Assembly: GCF_035573695.1 (NCBI RefSeq)
Contig: NZ_CP121694.1
Coordinates: 1,588,501-1,652,500 of the forward strand
DNA from: Metallumcola ferriviriculae
Lineage (GTDB): Bacteria; Bacillota; JADQBR01
Length of the DNA: 64,000 bases
Direction: 5' to 3'
Positions within the stretch are counted from its first letter, which is position 1; each line of letters starts with the position of its first letter. Positions 42,501 to 56,320 of the stretch are shown piece after piece. The position numbers were made by a program, and so were the translations under genes. The notes beneath the pieces were generated by a model that saw nothing but the letters and a program-made list of their open reading frames with translations, ran no database searches and was not told the DNA's origin.

Positions 42501-42682
42501 ATTTTATTACAGTGACATAATTAGACTTGGAACGCCATAAAAGGTAACTCAGTCAGCCCCAGTCATTTGATTGGGGCTTATATAATGTGGTCAATAGAAA
42601 AAAACACAGTGGGAATAAAAAGGAAAAAAGAGGAATTATCTTGCAATATGTTGAAGGATTTTCTAGAAGTATTTTGTTTAGA
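42501..42682. repeat. Dispersed repeat copy 1
   Basis: Contains ATTTTATTACAGTGACATAA, a terminator-like hairpin AGCCCCAGTC-ATTT-GATTGGGGCT (42556-42579), then AGGAAAAAAGAGGAATTAT and TTGAAGGATTTTCTAGAAGT. The same three blocks in the same order recur at 44871 and 48451. The rest of the 42286-42800 gap has no gene. It also holds a short GTATA/TATAC dyad followed by Ts near 42399-42421, a weak terminator candidate for the B12 operon. Confidence 0.75.
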
Positions 42683-42804
42683 ACATACCAAGTCTTAGAG
42701 AACGTTAAGCTGCGCATTATCCATAATATGCCTATATGAATTGCCCAAATTAAGAGCATGAGAATGAAAAGCATGAATTGTTCATGTAATTTGCCCCTCT
42801 GTTC

Positions 42805-44870: not shown

Positions 44871-45020
44871 AGTGACGTAACTAAAAAGGAACACCAGTCA
44901 GCTCCAATCACTTGATTGGGGCTTTGAAAATGCAATTAGGCAATTATATTAGCAGTAAAAGGAAAAAAGAGGAATTATATTGCAATGTGTTGAAGCGTTT
45001 TCTAGAAGATTGTGTCTAGC
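44871..45020. repeat. Dispersed repeat copy 2
   Basis: Shares with copies 1 and 3 the order AGTGACGTAA, CCAGTCAGCTCCAATCACTT with the GATTGGGGCT hairpin arm, AGGAAAAAAGAGGAATTATA, and TTGAAGCGTTTTCTAGAAG. The 430-base gap 44835-45264 holds this copy, an inverted-repeat element and the damaged start of the next gene. Confidence 0.7.
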
Positions 45021-45022
45021 AA

Positions 45023-45126
45023 ATTATCCGAAGTTAGGCGTAAAAAAACTCAAACCCAATTTTTTAAGTTTGAGTAATTATATGAGAGTTCTTTGCGGAT
45101 TTATTACTTACCTAACTTTGGATAAT
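45023..45126. repeat. Short inverted-repeat element (MITE-like)
   Basis: ATTATCCGAAGTTAGG at 45023-45038 and CCTAACTTTGGATAAT at 45111-45126 are 16-bp terminal inverted repeats with one mismatch. An inner dyad ACTCAAAC/GTTTGAGT lies at 45049-45074. No coding content. The total of 104 bp fits a tiny non-autonomous element or a long hairpin. Confidence 0.6.
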
Positions 45127-46099
45127 TACATAGTACGAAACCGCTGTTATAAGTAGCCTCTCGCTATGGGGATTGAATATTTTATCTCCTGTCTTTTTTT
45201 ATGACTTAAACATCATCTTGACATACCGAAATATGATTTAAAATATGAGTGGATACCACCATCTTTGAGATTTGATATTTTCAAGGCATTAATAGAAGGA
45301 TGCGAAAGTAGTGTACAAGAGTATTGTTTATATAGAGATGGAGCCGTCAGTATAAATAAACCAACGGTGCGATTGTATTCCGTAGAAGACATAGAAGAAC
45401 GTTATAACCCGGACTTATTCATTCAGATGCTAATAGATTTAGATTGGCACGAAATGTTATCAATTATAGAATTTTACTTAGATGTTGGACCTATTGATGC
45501 TGACGAAGTTAATCAATTATTTGAATATCATAAGGTTGCATATAGAATTGAGTCAGGCTACTTGGGATCAAAAGATCAAGTAGTTGTTTATTATTCAGAG
45601 CTAATTGATGATAATAATCAAGTTCTTGATATTGACATACCTTACAAAGCTGTAAAAGAATCAATAGAAGCTGCTCGAAACTATCTTACTAATCCACAAA
45701 ATATTGATATTGCAAATTCCATTAAGTCTTCGGTTAACGCTGTAGAAGGGTATCTTAAAGGATATTTTTCTGATAAAGGGAAAAAGCTCGGTACACTTGG
45801 TGATTGTATTAAAGAATTAAAGAACGATAATTCTTATCCAACAAACATAATTAGTTGTCTTAAGCAGTTATACATTTATAGGAATCAGACTGATGACCTT
45901 CTCCCGCTAAAATAGACACCGAAAATGGCGGATATTCTCCCGTTCACAGAGTTTTTGGCCGCCCTTGACATGGAGCCTCTGGGCCTATGTTTCTGAGAGG
46001 ACGGAGGCAGGCCAATAATGCTGCCCTCTTGCCGGAGAGGCTAACACAGGCCCTTCTCCATGTAAAGGGCTGCGCAAGCGTCCAAAAACATGCTCAGGA

Positions 46100-46927
46100 T
46101 TACGCGGCAGTTTGTGAAAACAACTGCTCATATTCAACTGGTGACATATACCCAAGGGCGGAATGTAGCCGGCTACGGTTGTAAAAAACTTCGATGTATT
46201 CAAATATTGCTTGGCGAGCTTCAGCCCTTGTTCTGAAGCGGATGCCATAGATTAATTCCTGTTTGAGTGTACCAAAGAATGATTCCATGCATGCATTATC
46301 ATAGCAGTTACCCTTACGGCTCATGCTAGGTACCATATGATAATCTTTAAGGGCTTGTTGGTATTCGTAACTGGCATACTGACTACCCCTGTCTGAATGA
46401 TGGATTAACCCTGCTTGAGGGCGATATCGACGATGTGCTTGTCTTAGCGCACCCAGTACTAGCTTTCGAGTCATAGTCTTATCCATAGCCCAACCAACAA
46501 TCTTACGGTTAAACAGGTCTTGTATGGTTGCAAGATAAAGCCATCCTTCGTTTGTAGGGATATAGGTAATATCAGCAACCCAGACGTTGTTCGGCCTATC
46601 CACATTGAAGTCTTGGTTGAGTAAGTTTCCGGCAACAGGATAATTGTGTTTGGAATTAGTCGTAGCCTTGAATCTCCTTTTGGTTTTAGCGACAATTCCA
46701 TTTTCCCGCATGAGGCGGGCAACACGCTTTGGGCTACATCTAACGCCCTGTTTTTGAAGTACCCTGGTTATCCTGGGGCTGCCGTAAGTACCTCGAGAGT
46801 CTTTGTGTATTTCACGGATCTTTTTTAGCAAATATTTATCCCGACGTTTTCGGTCACTTTCTGGTCGTTTGAGCCAAGCATAATAACCGCTTCTAGAAAC
46901 CTCTAGTACTCGGCACATCTTCTGCAC
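46100..46927 (-). CDS. IS3-family transposase OrfB (DDE integrase core)
   Basis: A 275-residue rve-type integrase. HTH_21 region [20 protein letters not shown] near residues 30-49, catalytic Asp in [10 protein letters not shown] near 114-123, Asp in [11 protein letters not shown] near 175-185, and Glu in [13 protein letters not shown] near 213-225. The DDE triad is intact and there is no frame break, so the element may still be mobile. Confidence 0.93.
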
Positions 46928-46965
46928 CCGAAACTTGAAGCGGTGCTGATAAATGAACTCATATA

Positions 46966-47250
46966 TTATTTCTGGCGCTTTGCGAAGATGGCCGTGGCCT
47001 TTTTTAGAATAGCGTTTTCCTCTTGCAGATCATCGATTATTTTCTTTAGACGTTTGATTTCTTCGTCTTCTGTCCTTTGGTTGCCGCTGCCAGGGAAAGC
47101 GTCGCCTTTGTGCTCTTTGTACTGGCGTATCCACTTATAGAGGGTATTTTCATGAATACCCAGTTCTTGAGCTACTTTCCTTACTGGACGATCCAAATCC
47201 AGAACCAGCTTCACGGCTTCTTCTTTAAAGTTTTTGTCATATTGATTCAT
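46966..47250 (-). CDS. IS3-family transposase OrfA
   Basis: A 94-residue helix-turn-helix and leucine-zipper protein: [20 protein letters not shown], then [20 protein letters not shown], then a coiled coil [23 protein letters not shown] at 47250 after GGAGG on the minus strand. Near its end the slippery heptamer A-AAA-AAG (plus strand 46999-47005) would allow a -1 shift into orfB to give the full OrfAB transposase. The frame relation of the two genes agrees with -1. Confidence 0.9.
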
Positions 47251-47616
47251 GACGGATACCTCCAATGGCTTTATTATACCAGCCATTTGCTGTGTCCATC
47301 AAAGTGGGTTAGGGTTACTGAGAATGTTGGACATGGGGATCCAGATTATGGGGAAATGGATAAGGAAGATGCCTTACTTTGTAATGAAATGGCAATTTCC
47401 TTCATTAATTACTTCTACCGGAAGACTATAACCTAAATCCGTGATAACATTTTGAGATACAAGATGAGAGGAATATTACCGTTATAAAACTTAGATGAGT
47501 GATTAAAGAGAGGTCTTCCCAGTATCTTTATACCAAAATAATAAAATATTGTCGAGCCTAATTACCCATAATGATTTTTTGGCTGTAGGGGTTAGACTTA
47601 ACGGGGATGGAATATA

Positions 47617-48450: not shown

Positions 48451-48622
48451 ATTTTATTACAGTGACAAAACGAAAAGTGCTGTTATCAGCCTCAATCATT
48501 TGATGATTGGGGCTTTTAATGCTGTCAGAAACAATTATACAATAGTAGTAAGAAGAGGAAAAAAGAGGGATTATATCATAACATGTTGAAGGACTTTTTA
48601 GAAGTATTTTGTTTATAACAAG
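48451..48622. repeat. Dispersed repeat copy 3
   Basis: ATTTTATTACAGTGACAAAA, the hairpin arm TGATTGGGGCTTTT, GAGGAAAAAAGAGGGATTAT, then TTGAAGGACTTTTTAGAAGT and ATTTTGTTTATAAC match copies 1 and 2 block for block. The start block is the same as in copy 1. Confidence 0.75.
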
Positions 48623-48733
48623 GGAAGAAACCAACTGCGTGTAAGGCTAATAATGTTGAAGTTTTATAACAGGTCTTGTTATAGCAATAATGGGTATTGT
48701 GTTGGATGCAAAATAGAAACAGGAGGGTTTAAT

Positions 48734-49657
48734 ATGGTTTATCACTACACATCGCCTGATGGCTTATATGCGATACTGAAGTGTAATTCCTTAAGATTTA
48801 CAGACTGCCAATATATGAATGATAGATCCGAATTTATTTATATTAAAGATACTTTTTTAAAGGGGCTCAAAGAATGTGAAGGAAAATTAAAATACAAGCA
48901 TTATGATAAGCTTATAGAGTTGGCATTTTCCAATAAATACGGCGAAAAAGATTTTAATTATATACCTCCAAGCAAAGATAGCCCAAAAGGGAAATTCATT
49001 ACAAGCGATAAGCGTCATTATATTTTTTGCACATCAACTGCAGATGATAGTTTAGGGATGTGGAATTACTATGTAAAAGGCGAGAATTATCAGGGATATA
49101 ACATTGGACTTGATACAGATTTACTGATCGCGGAAGCTGGTAAAAAAAGCCATGGAAGTTTTTGTTACGATTTGGCACATAATAATGTAATCTACGATGC
49201 AGAAAAACAAGTTTTATTACTTATAATGCTTTTGCATAATATCGATAAAGATATTTTTGATTATGCCAGTGAATATGGCGAAGAAGAATTATATAAATAC
49301 TTAGAGGATTCGACGGCATATTCAATATTTTCTTGCAGATTAAGTTTTAGCTTTTATCGGTTACTATTTAAACATCCTGCCTTTGTAGATGAAAGGGAAT
49401 ATCGCTTTATCTTAAGCATATCTGATAACCAAATCAAAGAGAATTCATCAATATTTAAAAAAGATTATTTTGTTCGTAATGGTGTCATTACACCATGTTG
49501 CAAACTAACTTTCGACAAAGAAAGCATAAAAAACATTACTGTTTCTCCTACTATGGAGTTTCAATTGGTAAAATATTCAACTCAGATTTTTCTTGAAGAA
49601 AACGGATATGTACATAACATAGATATAAAGCAGTCCGGAATACCAATTCGATATTAA
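48734..49657 (+). CDS. DUF2971-family protein
   Basis: A 307-residue protein that begins MVYHYTSPDGLYAILKCNSL and continues RFTDCQYMNDRSEF, the DUF2971 signature. SFYRLLFKHPAFVDEREYRF near residues 215-234 is the second hallmark. Function unproven. Such genes are common in defence and mobile islands. ATG at 48734 after AGGAGGG is chosen. 27 more codons are open upstream without a ribosome site. Confidence 0.8.
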   Translation: MVYHYTSPDGLYAILKCNSLRFTDCQYMNDRSEFIYIKDTFLKGLKECEGKLKYKHYDKLIELAFSNKYGEKDFNYIPPSKDSPKGKFITSDKRHYIFCTSTADDSLGMWNYYVKGENYQGYNIGLDTDLLIAEAGKKSHGSFCYDLAHNNVIYDAEKQVLLLIMLLHNIDKDIFDYASEYGEEELYKYLEDSTAYSIFSCRLSFSFYRLLFKHPAFVDEREYRFILSISDNQIKENSSIFKKDYFVRNGVITPCCKLTFDKESIKNITVSPTMEFQLVKYSTQIFLEENGYVHNIDIKQSGIPIRY

Positions 49658-49784: not shown

Positions 49785-50552
49785 TTAATTAAACATCATG
49801 GCAAGTGGATTAGAATTTACTGCAGATTGCAATTGCTGCTCATCAATATGAGTATATATCTCTGTTGTAGCAACACTTTCATGACCTAGAATTTGCTGCA
49901 ATGAGCGTAGGTCTACTCTACCATATTTATACATAAGAGTTGCAGCTGTGTGCCGAAGCTTATGAGTTGATATGGAGTGCGGGTCAAGTCCGGCAGCAGT
50001 AACATATTTCTTTACAATATTTTGTACTGCTCTCGTAGTAATGCGATTGTTATTTCTGGATATAAACAGAGCTGGGGTCTCAGTATTAAGAGTTTGTCTT
50101 ATCTGAAGCCATGAATTAAGTGATTTCTTAGTGGCGGGAGTTAGAAAAATTTTTCGTTCTTTATTGCCTTTACCAACAACAGTTAAAACCTCACCACTAA
50201 CTTGGCCAATGTTTAAACTGGTCAGTTCGGAAAGCCGTAGTGCACAGTTGAGAAAGATGGTAAGGATGCAATGATCTCTTGGGGAACCTTTGCTTTCAAT
50301 GAGAAGGCGGACAGATTCTTCTAAATTTAAGTATTTAGGAATACGCTTTGGTAATTTGGGAGTTTCTAACTCTTCAGCTATATTGTTATCAATAAGATGA
50401 GCCTTGGTTTTGAGATACTTCCAAAACTGTCTTATTGAAACTATTTTTCTTGCTCTGGTACCGTGTGAAGAATTAAGTTCAATTTGGCAATGTGAGATAA
50501 AGTTATACATATCATTTAACTCTATGGATTTAATGAAGTCTAATCCTATCAT
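49785..50552 (-). CDS. Tyrosine recombinase/integrase, XerC/D-like
   Basis: A 255-residue site-specific recombinase. Catalytic residues can be seen in CALRLSEL (Arg 106), GKGNKER (Lys), HKLRHTAATLMYK (His 197, Arg 200), LGHESVATT (His 224) and IYTHID (Tyr 233). The N-terminal core-binding domain is about 30 residues shorter than usual. The frame meets a stop just upstream of the ATG. It is divergent from the nuclease-helicase pair and could have brought in the island, or serve a resident role. No att sites were found by eye. Confidence 0.9.
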   Translation of the reverse strand: MIGLDFIKSIELNDMYNFISHCQIELNSSHGTRARKIVSIRQFWKYLKTKAHLIDNNIAEELETPKLPKRIPKYLNLEESVRLLIESKGSPRDHCILTIFLNCALRLSELTSLNIGQVSGEVLTVVGKGNKERKIFLTPATKKSLNSWLQIRQTLNTETPALFISRNNNRITTRAVQNIVKKYVTAAGLDPHSISTHKLRHTAATLMYKYGRVDLRSLQQILGHESVATTEIYTHIDEQQLQSAVNSNPLAMMFN

Positions 50553-50651
50553 GGAGAAGTCCTTATTAGTTTATGTTTAAAGTGGATTGCCTTAAGGCTT
50601 CTTACCATTAAGCTTGCAAATGAACAGATTGATAGCAAAGGAGGACAGATT

Positions 50652-52217
50652 ATGCCATCAATCATTACGAAGATAAAACTGATTAATTATAAAAGATTTA
50701 GGGACTATACAATTGAACCAAACGGGCAAATTAATATTCTGGTTGGTGATAACGAGGTTGGTAAAAGCACTGTCCTCGAAGCAATTGATATTGTCGCAAG
50801 CGGTAATGTTCGAAGAGTTGAAGCAATAGGTATCGATAAGTTTCTAAATATCGATGCCGTACAGCAGTTTAACACTGGAGAACGTAATTTTGAACATTTA
50901 CCTAAACTTGCCGTGGAACTTTACCTTAATGGAAGTTTCGACCATACGATGAACGGTAAAAACAATTCGGATGGTATTACTTGTGACGGTATAAGGCTAG
51001 TATGTGAGCCAAACTACGATTTTTTGTCTGAAATCACTGAATCATTACAGGCTCGGGCAGATTATTTTCCGTATGATTATTATTCGATTCGTTTTTCGAC
51101 CTTCGCAGATGAAGGATATACCGGTTATAAGAAAAAAATAAGGAACATTCTTATAAACAGCACCAATATGAGTTCGGAGTTTGCAATTAATGATTTCATC
51201 AAGCGTATGTACAACCAATACACCGAGGATGACATAAAAGAGCGTGCTGTGCATAAAAGCAAATATAGACAGTTAAGGAGCGGCTTTTGTGCAGCTAGTT
51301 TATGCGCCCTAAATGAGCGTATACCAGCTGAAAAGAACTACACATTTGGATTGAGAACAGGGGCGTCATTGAGTCTTGAAAACGATTTAATGATTTATGA
51401 AGATGAAATCGGAATTGACAGTAAAGGAACGGGTAATCAAGTATTCATTAAAACTGATTTTGCCTTGGAACGTTCCGGCTCCAATGTGGATGTAATACTG
51501 ATTGAAGAACCAGAAAACCACCTAAGTCATGTTAATTTGCGTAAGCTTATCCAGCGTGTTTCGGAAACTCAGCATGGTCAATTGTTTATTACTACGCATA
51601 ATAGCCTGATTAGTACCCGTTTAGAGTTGCAAAATCTTCTTATTATGCACGAGGAAGCAGAAGATAAGCCTACATCTCTGAGTGGTTTGAAGGCTGAAAC
51701 TGCTAAATACTTTATGAAAGCTCCGGTCGCGAACGTTATTGAATTTGCTCTTTCCCAGAGAGTAATCCTTGTTGAAGGCCCCTCTGAATACATGCTATTT
51801 GAGAGGTTCTACGAAAATATAATTGGCCACAAACCGGAAAGCGACAATGTACACATTATGGATGTGCGTGGATTGAGCTTCAAACGGTATCTCGAAATTG
51901 CTCAGCTGCTCAGCAGTAAAGTAGTAGTTGTTACCGATAATGACCACAATACGCAAAAGAACTGCATAGAGAAATACTTGGATTTTGCTACCGATGCAAA
52001 TATCAAAATATGCTATGAAAACAATGAAATGATGAGCACTTTTGAAAAAGTTTTATATAGCGTTAATCAAACTCTGTGCAATCGGCTATTCGGTGAAAAC
52101 GCAATTGACTATATGCTTGGAAACAAAACTGAAGCTGCATATACGCTGCTAAGCCAACATGAGACCATTGCCGTTCCGGACTACATTCGAGGAGCGATAG
52201 AATGGATAAACGAGTAA
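50652..52217 (+). CDS. OLD-family endonuclease (GajA-like): ABC ATPase plus TOPRIM
   Basis: A 521-residue protein. Walker A GDNEVGKST is at residues 32-40 of an N-terminal SMC/RecF-like ATPase: the family start TKIKLINYKRFRDY is present, and ILIEEPENHLSH near 280-291 gives Walker B. The C-terminal TOPRIM domain has VILVEGPSEYML near 373-384 and VVVTDNDHNTQKN near 425-437. This is the layout of GajA of the Gabija anti-phage system, which nicks DNA when nucleotides are depleted. AAAGGAGG precedes the ATG. It overlaps the helicase gene by 16 bases. Confidence 0.85.
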   Translation: MPSIITKIKLINYKRFRDYTIEPNGQINILVGDNEVGKSTVLEAIDIVASGNVRRVEAIGIDKFLNIDAVQQFNTGERNFEHLPKLAVELYLNGSFDHTMNGKNNSDGITCDGIRLVCEPNYDFLSEITESLQARADYFPYDYYSIRFSTFADEGYTGYKKKIRNILINSTNMSSEFAINDFIKRMYNQYTEDDIKERAVHKSKYRQLRSGFCAASLCALNERIPAEKNYTFGLRTGASLSLENDLMIYEDEIGIDSKGTGNQVFIKTDFALERSGSNVDVILIEEPENHLSHVNLRKLIQRVSETQHGQLFITTHNSLISTRLELQNLLIMHEEAEDKPTSLSGLKAETAKYFMKAPVANVIEFALSQRVILVEGPSEYMLFERFYENIIGHKPESDNVHIMDVRGLSFKRYLEIAQLLSSKVVVVTDNDHNTQKNCIEKYLDFATDANIKICYENNEMMSTFEKVLYSVNQTLCNRLFGENAIDYMLGNKTEAAYTLLSQHETIAVPDYIRGAIEWINE

Positions 52218-53215
52218 TCTTTGCCGCAGCTGGTTCGGGAAAAACAACCTATATTGTAAATGGCTTGTCAGACCAAAGAAGGTCTCTCATCGTTACTTAC
52301 ACAAAAGGCAATTACGCGAACATGCTAAAAAAAATCTGTGTGAAGTTTGATGGAAAGTGGCCAGAAAATATTACTTTGATGACCTATTTCTCTTTTCTAT
52401 ATGGTTTCTGTTATAGGCCATTTTTGTCAGACAAGGTAAAAGCGAAGGGCCTTTTATACGAGGCTAACCCTAACAGGTATGCCAAACAAGATCAACCCCA
52501 ATACTATTTAAGCAAAGGCAGATATTTATACAGTAATCGCTTGTCTTTATTGTTGGAAAAAGCCCAAATTTTAGATGATATCAAAGCGCGCATTAAGACA
52601 TATTTTGATGAATTTATCATTGACGAGGTTCAGGATATCTCAGGTCGAGACTTTTCGTTTTTAGAGCAGCTCATGACCACAGACGTAGACATGCTATTTG
52701 TGGGCGATTTCTATCAGCATACATTTGATACCAGTAGGGATGGTAACGTTAACAAATCACTTTATGACGACAAGGCGGCATATGAAGCACATTTTGCTAG
52801 TAAAGGTTGTTCTATCGACAACACAACTCTTAAGAATAGTTGGCGTTGTAGCAAAAACGTATGTGCTTATATCCGTAGTAATATTGGTATCGATATATAC
52901 TCAAATCGTCCTGACACGGACAATACCTCTATTGAATTCGTATCTGACGTTGATTTAATTGGAAGAATATTCAACGATAATCAAATAATTAAGCTGCACT
53001 ATCAAAATGGTTCTAAAGCAGGTATTAGTCATAAGAACTGGGGTGAAACGAAGGGCGAAGATCATTATCAAGATGTATGCGTGTTGCTTAACAAAACTAC
53101 TGCGAGTAAGCGTAAGTCTGATAAATTATCTGAACTTCCCCCGTCAACCAAAAACAAACTGTATGTTGCCATTACACGAGCCAGAAGCAATGTATACCTT
53201 ATTGATGAGTCATAA
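52202..53215 (+). CDS. UvrD/PcrA-like helicase (GajB-like), compact
   Basis: A 337-residue superfamily 1 ATPase. It has Walker A FAAAGSGKTTYIV (residues about 6-18), FIIDEVQDISGRD, LFVGDFYQHTFDTS, LKNSWRCSKNVCAYI, KGEDHYQDVCVL and the C-terminal YVAITRARSNVYLID. Known GajB proteins are near 490 residues, so insert domains are shortened here. Overlap with the OLD nuclease gene marks them as one functional pair, as in Gabija. Confidence 0.85.
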   Translation: MDKRVIFAAAGSGKTTYIVNGLSDQRRSLIVTYTKGNYANMLKKICVKFDGKWPENITLMTYFSFLYGFCYRPFLSDKVKAKGLLYEANPNRYAKQDQPQYYLSKGRYLYSNRLSLLLEKAQILDDIKARIKTYFDEFIIDEVQDISGRDFSFLEQLMTTDVDMLFVGDFYQHTFDTSRDGNVNKSLYDDKAAYEAHFASKGCSIDNTTLKNSWRCSKNVCAYIRSNIGIDIYSNRPDTDNTSIEFVSDVDLIGRIFNDNQIIKLHYQNGSKAGISHKNWGETKGEDHYQDVCVLLNKTTASKRKSDKLSELPPSTKNKLYVAITRARSNVYLIDES

Positions 53216-53406
53216 ATTTTGCTACGGAAAACCTGATTTTGCATTCATATAAACTTCCCGTTATGTTTAATAGAAAAAATACCTATGTAGATAAGTTCGT
53301 TTTTCAATTATCAGGAAGTTAGACAAAGACCTTTGCACACTAACGAACGAATTTGAATGATAGACTAAAAATCAATAAATGACGAGAATGAAATGGAGGA
53401 AGAGTA

Positions 53407-54465
53407 ATGGCTCTTATTGATACATACCGAAACAATATGCAACGCAAACGTCAAGAGATAGTTTCCTTACGTGAAAAAATGGCTAAAGAAAGTGAAAAAA
53501 AGACTGGTATTAATACTAAAATTCTGTCTGCAAAATCCGCTATTAGCCGAACAAAATCCGAGTTAACAATCAAGTCAAAACTTAACGAAATAAGTAGACT
53601 GGAAAAATCCTTGTCGGATATTGATAAGGCAATTGCTAATCTGGAAAAGAAAATTGCATCAAAAGAAAAAGAGTACAACACTGAGGCAAAGAAGCATAAA
53701 GCCGAGGAGGAAAAGCAGCGCAAAAAGCAGGAGCAGGAAGACAAGCAGCGCCAGAAGGTAAGTGAGCGTACTTTCCAGAAAATTAATCAAGCAATCGCTG
53801 CGCAGCAGAGACAGCAGTCTGATATGCAAAATGATATAGAACGGCTCAAAGCTGTTCCCGAAAAAATTACCGTGTTGTTCTTTGCCACCAACCCAACAAA
53901 TACTAGCAAACTGCGTTTGGATGAAGAATCTCGAACGATACAGGAAATGATTCGCAAATCTGAGCACAGAGATTCTATCTTTTTTGAAAGCAGATGGGCT
54001 GTTCGGCCGCTGGATATTCTTCAAGCTATCAACGAGGTAAACCCTGATGTAGTCCATTTTAGCGGTCATGGGGCGTCTCATGGCGACCTTGTTTTGGAAA
54101 ACACGGACGGTACAGCTAAATTTGTAACTAAAGAAGCCATCACACAAACAATTATGTCATCATCAGATAAAATTCACCTTATTTTCTTTAATGCTTGCTT
54201 TTCCTATGAACAGGCCCAATCTGTTATAAATTATGTGGATGCGGCTATTGGTATGACAACATCTGTAGGAGATGCAGCTGCTTGTGCTTTTGCGGCACAA
54301 TTCTATTCATCCCTTGGCTTTGGCTTTTCGGTCCAAAAAGCATTTGAACAGGCTAAAGGCGTTATGATGCTTGAAGATCCAGATGAATGTAATACCCCTG
54401 AACTTTATGTAAAAGATGGTGTTGATGTCGATACACTTTTTATTGTAAAACCCGTCGAAAACTAA
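53407..54465 (+). CDS. Coiled-coil CHAT-domain (caspase-like) protease
   Basis: A 352-residue protein. Residues 1-150 form a long charged coiled coil (repeated Lys/Glu/Gln runs such as AEEEKQRKKQEQEDKQRQK). Residues 152-350 are a CHAT peptidase: ITVLFFATNP opens the fold, His 221 is in VHFSGHGASHG, and Cys 264 is in IFFNACFSYEQ, the His-Cys dyad. AAQFYSSLGFGFSVQKAF is a family motif. CHAT proteases act as effectors in several bacterial defence systems. GGAGG precedes the ATG. It lies 191 bases after the helicase gene on the same strand. Confidence 0.85.
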   Translation: MALIDTYRNNMQRKRQEIVSLREKMAKESEKKTGINTKILSAKSAISRTKSELTIKSKLNEISRLEKSLSDIDKAIANLEKKIASKEKEYNTEAKKHKAEEEKQRKKQEQEDKQRQKVSERTFQKINQAIAAQQRQQSDMQNDIERLKAVPEKITVLFFATNPTNTSKLRLDEESRTIQEMIRKSEHRDSIFFESRWAVRPLDILQAINEVNPDVVHFSGHGASHGDLVLENTDGTAKFVTKEAITQTIMSSSDKIHLIFFNACFSYEQAQSVINYVDAAIGMTTSVGDAAACAFAAQFYSSLGFGFSVQKAFEQAKGVMMLEDPDECNTPELYVKDGVDVDTLFIVKPVEN

Positions 54466-54680
54466 CGAGTGTAAAGAATGGAAAACTAATAATCGGCATT
54501 TCATGTAACTGAATGTTTTAGCAATAATGCGCAATCCTTTAAATGATAGGTTAGCTCCATGATAAGAAGATGAGAGTATACATATCAACAACGCAAACTA
54601 CAAAATAACCACGTGAAGAAAGCTAAACATGGAAACTTAATCTGACTAAATTTGAAATAAAAAAAGAGGATGTTAAATGT

Positions 54681-56003
54681 ATGAATGGTCCTTATAAAGA
54701 ATTAACTTTATCAGTATTTGAAAAACTGATTTCTGATACAGACTCATCTATTTTATGCGGAAATGGGTTTAGTATCAATTTCGACAATAGGCTTTCGATG
54801 AATAATCTTGGGAAAAGCCTATATCGTGCTCATTGCACTTGGAAAGCACATTCTAACTATAAAATTATTAGCAATGCTGCTTTTAAAGATGGATTGAAAA
54901 CAAATTATAATGGCGCAAAAAAAATAATTAATAGGATAAAGAGTGAGGAAGATTTAGAAAGCTTTTTCAAATATGCAATTACACTTGCATGTCAAATTGT
55001 TGATGATGGCAATGTAGTAAAATGGCTTAATGACAATGGGTTCAACTCCAACTTAGTTTTTGGGGTTAGTCAAATTGATATTTTAAAAGAAATAATATCG
55101 CAATCAAAAACCAAAAGTGTTTTATGCGTAAATTATGAGTATTGGAGCTTGGTTGTTTATTTTGTTTTGGCTCTCTCCAATGCTCCCGATGATGTTTACA
55201 CCTTGGATAAAACAAATTTTTTTGTTGAGGCAGTATTGACTGGCCGTCAATATAGTTCTACTAAACAACAATCAAATTTAAGCGGAGCATCAATGATTAG
55301 CGAAACCGTTATAAATGGTGTAACTATCTACTTACGTTTCCTGTTTGCAATAAATATTTTGATTGATGGTAGTGGTGTAAATATAACTGGATTTTCAAAT
55401 TGGGGCAGACTGAATATTACAAAAATAAATGAACTGTTTTCCAAATTTGATCACTTGCTAACAACAAACTACGATCTGTTGATAGAAAATATTACTAACA
55501 GAACAGTTAGACATTTGCATGGAGAATATAGCAAAAATGAAAATGTAGTGTTTTATCAATCGATGTCCGTACTGCTTGGTATGAATAAATTTGATTTATC
55601 TACAATAATTTTAGGAGATTATTTTGGTGGAAAAACCTTTTTTATAACTACAGCTCAAGGCTGTGCAGGCAAGTTCCCCAATTCTTCTGTTCAATTTTAC
55701 TCCAAAATACTTGAAGATATTATTAGAAAACAAAAACCAAAAACCATTGTGCTTTTTGGCTTATGTGCCGATAATGATTATCACATCATTAGAGATTTGC
55801 AAGTTTACATGGGATTAGAAAAAACACAAAATGCTGAAATTGTATTTTGCTACTACGATGAATACGCTAAAAACGGATTTTTAGATGTATACGAAAAATG
55901 TATTACTTATTCAAGTGAGTTAAGTGATTTTGTGCGAAACAACATTAAATTATCATTGATAGACTCAAAAGAAAGACTTGGTAAATATTTTATTAGTCGT
56001 TAA
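54681..56003 (+). CDS. SIR2-like domain protein (probable NADase-type)
   Basis: A 440-residue protein with SIR2-type landmarks. ILCGNGFSINFD at about residues 24-35 resembles the first NAD loop. LLTTNYDLLIEN is at 259-270. VRHLHGEYS at 276-284 holds the possible catalytic His. TIVLFGLCADNDYHI at 355-369 resembles the last nucleotide-binding loop. These match SIR2-like/DUF4917-type proteins found in defence islands. Residues 90-220 are an unrecognised helical insert. AAAAAGAGGA precedes the ATG. AT-rich and on the same strand as the CHAT gene, 215 bases away. Confidence 0.7.
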   Translation: MNGPYKELTLSVFEKLISDTDSSILCGNGFSINFDNRLSMNNLGKSLYRAHCTWKAHSNYKIISNAAFKDGLKTNYNGAKKIINRIKSEEDLESFFKYAITLACQIVDDGNVVKWLNDNGFNSNLVFGVSQIDILKEIISQSKTKSVLCVNYEYWSLVVYFVLALSNAPDDVYTLDKTNFFVEAVLTGRQYSSTKQQSNLSGASMISETVINGVTIYLRFLFAINILIDGSGVNITGFSNWGRLNITKINELFSKFDHLLTTNYDLLIENITNRTVRHLHGEYSKNENVVFYQSMSVLLGMNKFDLSTIILGDYFGGKTFFITTAQGCAGKFPNSSVQFYSKILEDIIRKQKPKTIVLFGLCADNDYHIIRDLQVYMGLEKTQNAEIVFCYYDEYAKNGFLDVYEKCITYSSELSDFVRNNIKLSLIDSKERLGKYFISR

Positions 56004-56320
56004 GGTGTAAGATGTGAAAAGGGTGCCAAAAAAACAATACACTCCAGAAGAACCATTTGATGAAAATTAGTGATTGCTGTTATTTCCCATTATGTTTAAA
56101 ATATTCCAGATCAGTATGTGTCAAACTGCTCATTAGGCTAATAATGCGCAACTGAAAAGCAAAGCTCTATCGACATATGTTTCTTTTATAGCCAATTGCG
56201 AAATTCAAAATTTAAAGTAAGCAGTATAAGAAAATTTAATGATGACTTTTCATTTGATGTAATAAAATCTGCCACTCTGCTTATAAAAGTAAAGTAAAAT
56301 GGGTCCGTCGTATAACAGCC

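Follow-up and report, generated by a model that had tools for sequence, protein, structure and literature searches.

The segment between about 45.2 and 56.0 kb of the window, the 64,000-nt stretch of DNA analysed here (positions 1588501–1652500 of a genome made of a single 3.72-Mb contig), is very probably a defence island in which three independent units of anti-phage type, a Gabija pair, a CHAT protease gene and a gene for a SIR2-like protein, lie in a row. The N-terminal coiled-coil hairpin of the CHAT protein is homologous to the N-terminal part of TIR proteins (PDC-S66) and of PtuA ATPases of Septu-like type, to a degree that coiled-coil bias does not explain, and behaves like an exchangeable front end joined to differing effectors. 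A tentative reading, to which we give somewhat less than even weight, is that this hairpin would be an undescribed portable immunity module, carried by a CHAT protease, a TIR protein or a Septu ATPase or standing alone, whose task would be to detect infection, perhaps through restriction-modification (R-M) complexes, and to switch on the attached effector. The four-gene system put forward in the first-pass annotation was a false lead, and its removal leaves a testable replacement, one coil common to three effector types. What is new is the sharing of this coil with TIR, PtuA and solo proteins, a modest finding in which PDC-S66 takes its place within a wider coil family, and the Gabija pair itself is of a known kind.

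Organization of the island

The coordinates and strands of the five genes first described, from the recombinase to the SIR2-like gene, agreed with the ORF list, as did the gaps of 191 and 215 nt in the four-gene row (Table 1). These genes form only part of the island, whose left portion holds an AbiJ-like candidate (45265), an IS3 element and genes for DUF1643 and DUF2971 proteins recognized by Pfam and PADLOC, the DUF2971 gene being, by its similarities, a probable further member. The GC content was 33–37% over 48–56 kb, whereas much of the cobalamin-type region on its left had 45–50%. The description as a defence-like cluster of at least two units was thus borne out, and comparison with relatives raised the number to three unrelated units. 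The genes are co-directional and local co-transcription is possible; sigma-70 promoter and terminator scans gave predictions no richer than in shuffled sequence and did not separate transcription units.

Table 1. Features of the defence island (window coordinates)
Feature	Coordinates	Strand	Basis
AbiJ_NTD4-like defence candidate	45265..45915	+	PADLOC PDC-S32 2.1e-19; Pfam AbiJ_NTD4 below cut-off
IS3-type insertion sequence, transposase in two frames, inside the island	46100..47286	-	Pfam rve, HTH_21; ORFs
DUF2971 protein	48653..49657	+	Pfam 1.4e-7; weak PADLOC PDC-S31/AbiGi similarity, PDC-S31 1.5e-5
Tyrosine recombinase, XerC-like	49785..50552	-	Pfam Phage_integrase 1.4e-35; catalytic domain present
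gajA, compact Gabija: ATPase (Walker A 32-40) and OLD TOPRIM (E375, D429, D431)	50652..52217	+	PADLOC PDLC00102 2.7e-112; Pfam OLD-like_TOPRIM 7.7e-18
gajB, compact UvrD-type helicase	52202..53215	+	PADLOC PDLC00148 9.4e-47
Coiled-coil hairpin module of the CHAT protein, residues 1-148	53407..53850	+	PADLOC PDC-S66 over residues 4-141, E 3.5e-17; AlphaFold2
CHAT (caspase-like) protease domain, H221/C264	53851..54465	+	Pfam CHAT 2.7e-9; Foldseek 8tl0 9.2e-15
Divergent SIR2-like protein, lone accessory gene family	54681..56003	+	Motifs in six family members; PADLOC PDC-S21 weak in all six

The divergently transcribed gene first described as a tyrosine recombinase keeps its catalytic domain, but the start of its N-terminal domain is missing. 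The protein matched the XerC model from position 42 and the XerA model from position 36, model positions 1 to about 40 being absent, which leaves the core-binding domain incomplete. Extension of the open frame gained 6 residues only, and the frames of most other tyrosine recombinases in this genome span 322–382 aa. The gene is probably an N-terminally truncated remnant, and since part of this domain is lacking, an active integrase role for the cluster is unlikely. Candidate att repeats at 42710 and 49749 were dropped, as 16-mers of this kind are expected by chance in 17 kb. A viral contig (L108, 6376-7287) carries a tyrosine recombinase 39% identical to that of the window, just upstream of a relative of the SIR2-like gene.

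Two repeats were also observed. A leader-like repeat of about 130–150 nt, composed of a terminator-like hairpin and an AT-rich stretch, occurs at 42539-42685, 44884-45024 and 48490-48640, preceding a MarR gene and the genes for the AbiJ-like and DUF2971 proteins, with two further copies elsewhere in the genome and no Rfam match; indeed, Rfam gave no match anywhere in 41.2–58.4 kb. A short repeat at 56187-56240, just right of the SIR2-like gene, has 17 other genome copies at about 84–86% identity.

The CHAT protease and its coiled-coil hairpin

The description of the third gene as a coiled-coil CHAT protease with an intact His-Cys dyad was confirmed by Pfam, by the alignment, in which H221 and C264 were invariant in all 33 CHAT sequences, and by the predicted structure. 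The AlphaFold2 model built from this alignment (mean pLDDT 88.8) placed an alpha/beta domain after the N-terminal coil, and Foldseek returned the activated SAVED-CHAT structure 8tl0 as its best PDB match, followed by caspases, so that a caspase-like fold and the His-Cys dyad were found together. Four other loci (L081, L097, L103 and L014) hold disrupted copies, with the coil and the CHAT part in separate frames, which suggests repeated loss.

In the model, the coil consists of helices 3-48 and 52-148, and its best-conserved stretch was the hairpin turn at residues 49-62 (T-K-S-x-S-T-I-x-S-K-x-x-E-I), which has no heptad pattern. All 33 CHAT sequences matched the PADLOC model PDC-S66, the match in the window protein lying across the coil. 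A TIR domain is found at the C-terminus of the full-length PDC-S66 members L134 and L165, and also of L164 and L166. A profile made from CHAT coils only also matched, in register at the N-terminus, the PtuA-type ATPase of L093 and its counterpart in L096. In L093 the coil-PtuA gene is followed by a PtuB-type HNH gene, and a coil-CHAT gene lies close by in both loci. It was also observed that the Septu-like PtuAB genes of L093 (4775-8936) and L096 adjoin a gene for a 164-aa uncharacterised protein and the coil-CHAT gene.

Because coiled coils yield false matches, these scores were compared with those of 300 heptad-block shuffles per sequence and of reversed sequences. The CHAT-coil profile scored 45–103 bits against coil-TIR proteins and 48–55 bits against coil-PtuA proteins, while the null maxima for both were 10–39 bits for the shuffles and at most 3 bits for the reversed sequences. 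Solo coils of about 100 residues (L177-L203), encoded by lone chromosomal genes without an effector and present in most of the 34 genomes that gave a hit, out of 201 from one family, scored 27–33 bits against shuffle maxima of 11–22, and this link is weaker than that to coil-TIR and coil-PtuA. No paper on a coil common to CHAT, TIR and PtuA proteins was found in a literature search of mostly non-subscription journals.

Neighbours of CHAT genes and possible mode of action

No constant partner of CHAT was found across the listed loci. The 122 immediate neighbours annotated by PADLOC and Pfam included reverse transcriptases (DRT), type I and IIG R-M genes, Cas1 and BrxL. In E. coli PS10-3, record NZ_CP096837.1, the CHAT gene adjoins a dGTPase-family gene and Avs3. 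Tyrosine recombinase trios lie beside five CHAT loci. Judged by gene neighbourhood, this pattern is the one shown by a solitary defence gene within islands.

R-M genes recur in these neighbourhoods: the order hsdS-CHAT-hsdR is found in L067, L071 and L085, other hsd genes lie near CHAT in L049, L054, L063 and L105, and coil-TIR genes have hsdS as a neighbour in L174 and L175 and a mod-type methylase gene in L134, so that the nesting occurs with either CHAT or TIR. Such arrangements would suit a coil that guards R-M complexes and detects their inactivation rather than acting as a general sensor; yet most CHAT loci, including that of the window, have no adjoining R-M genes, and this narrower role is considered unlikely.

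The broader reading, a coil that responds to an infection signal, is favoured mainly because CHAT, TIR and ATPase interchange behind one coil. The coil is likely to act by sensing or by oligomerisation that would activate the attached effector; since elsewhere TIR or a PtuA ATPase follows this coil, the coil would probably be the switch and the effector the interchangeable part. In the window, the CHAT protein would most likely work alone, the hairpin holding it inactive or assembling it until a signal of infection releases it, after which the His-Cys protease would cleave a cell protein and growth would stop. We infer the anti-phage activity, the signal and the cleavage of a host protein by CHAT. 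If the coil is the sensor, effector swaps behind it would directly reveal what it detects.

The SIR2-like protein

The last gene of the row had been called SIR2-like, and this name holds by motif: a motif set was conserved in the six members of its family, but no curated family was reached at threshold. The curated SIR2 profile left the window protein below threshold, with a Pfam SIR2_2 E-value of 0.1 (13.1 bits versus a cut-off of 24.5), and the best SIR2_2 E-value among the six members was 0.0056. The aligned family comprises the window protein and five others from one Priestia plasmid, three viral contigs and one phage scaffold, which share 29–32% identity with it. Common to all six are GNG.SINFD, NYD, H.HG, GDY and G....ND.H, present in the window protein as GNGFS at residue 27, TNYD (N263, D265), HLHG (H278, H280) and FG..NDxH. 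N263, the predicted NAD-site Asn, D265 and H280, the predicted catalytic His, were invariant in all six. The residue named earlier as His279 is a Leu, the conserved histidines H278 and H280 lying one position off. The structure predicted for this protein was a poor model (pLDDT 47.7). Scanning of the genome contigs with this protein alone gave no relative. By analogy with SIR2-type NADases, it may act by NAD depletion.

The occurrence of SIR2 relatives in phage and plasmid contigs, and of CHAT on plasmids, would also accord with both genes being carried by phages or plasmids for some other purpose, such as superinfection exclusion or addiction. The many defence families among the CHAT neighbours and the presence of effector domains typical of abortive infection speak against it, and a cargo role is regarded as improbable.

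Independence of the three units

The first-pass annotation had recognized the Gabija layout, an OLD nuclease gene overlapping a UvrD helicase gene, and this was upheld by the PADLOC matches of GajA and GajB, by the 16-nt overlap and by the motifs, those of gajB being recognisable as Walker A, DEVQD, GDFYQ, WR and AITRA. The proteins are compact (521 and 337 aa), and the same layout with the same overlap is found on a Klebsiella plasmid and in a same-phylum genome (L171). On sequence grounds, gajAB is a real and ordinary Gabija system of compact subtype.

Association of these genes was assessed at 88 or more CHAT loci, at least 80 of them from a scan in which each species was represented by one genome and 8 from plasmids and sampled genomes. 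Within flanks reaching at most 8 kb to either side, and on many contigs short enough for a distant pairing to escape, a tblastn search with every protein of the window placed Gabija near CHAT in 1 of the 88 listed loci (L093, Pseudomonas, on the other strand and about 6 kb off) and a SIR2 relative beside CHAT in none, with profile searches agreeing. The nine viral CHAT loci had neither. Conversely, the five SIR2 relatives (L009, L107-L109, L119) had no adjoining CHAT or Gabija gene, the four Gabija relatives of the same or nearby subtypes (L120, L171-L173) had no adjoining CHAT or SIR2 gene, and viral contigs scanned with GajA gave no match. Among 399 same-phylum genomes, the CHAT family was present in 3 (the window's included), window-type GajA in 4 and a full-length SIR2 relative in the window's genome only, which was also the sole genome with more than one of these families. 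In plasmid records, GajA had 2,325 matches, 1,273 of them in Klebsiella, and CHAT had 68, with Klebsiella outside the ten leading genera, the tenth of which had 2. The four-gene set therefore shows no conserved co-occurrence, the very outcome that the first-pass annotation had named as refuting it.

Two ways of linking the genes to each other had also been proposed. A two-gene abortive system, in which the CHAT protease activates the SIR2 protein or both act in sequence, would draw on their adjacency on one strand, 215 nt apart, and on the protease-activated effectors known in type III CRISPR, but the pair was never found together outside the window among the listed loci, the SIR2 relatives stand alone, and the GC contents of the two genes differ (39.8% for CHAT and 30.7% for SIR2); absent co-occurrence largely refutes this reading, which seems very improbable. 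Equally hard to credit is that both genes, which follow gajB immediately and share its strand, are arms added to the Gabija lineage of the window, when the four Gabija relatives lack them downstream, Gabija stands by CHAT at a single listed locus and GajA plasmids abound where CHAT does not.

Comparison with known systems

Gabija is established to cut phage DNA upon a drop in nucleotide levels, and by analogy the window pair would presumably do so when these levels are low. The pair resembles known Gabija in its ATPase-TOPRIM nuclease gene overlapping a UvrD-type helicase gene and in matching the PADLOC models over their full length; it differs in its compactness, and in sequence the solved GajA structures align with residues 275-437 only.

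The full-length PDC-S21 member L167 corresponds to Pfam DUF4917, and the SIR2-like protein shares with DUF4917/PDC-S21 and with SIR2-type NADases the motif order GNG.S, TNYD, HG and FG...D.H. It differs in that its PDC-S21 match covers only 46 N-terminal residues (10-55), SIR2_2 stays below cut-off, and hhalign of its family against L167 aligned 23 columns with a probability of 4.7.

The nearest solved CHAT domain, both in sequence (E 9.7e-28) and in fold, is that of the type III CRISPR SAVED-CHAT (8tl0), but the window protein carries a coil hairpin instead of a SAVED domain: the PADLOC SAVED_CHAT model aligned over 339-452 of 498 only, and no type III CRISPR genes were found beside CHAT in the window. 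As for TPR-CHAT (Craspase), Pfam and PADLOC found no TPR match and no type III-E effector neighbour among the scanned genes. Borvo is a single-gene system. Its likeness to the window protein, in a comparison confined to that domain, is the CHAT domain present in both (PMC10952713); no Borvo-named model appeared among the PADLOC matches up to E = 1, and a literature search on Borvo returned nothing relevant.

Some PtuA-type proteins of Septu-like loci (L093, L096) have the same N-terminal coil as the window CHAT protein, Septu differing in combining an ATPase with an HNH nuclease rather than a protease. PDC-S66, a PADLOC uncharacterised defence candidate, is likewise homologous in its N-terminal coil, with a C-terminal TIR domain where the window protein has CHAT.
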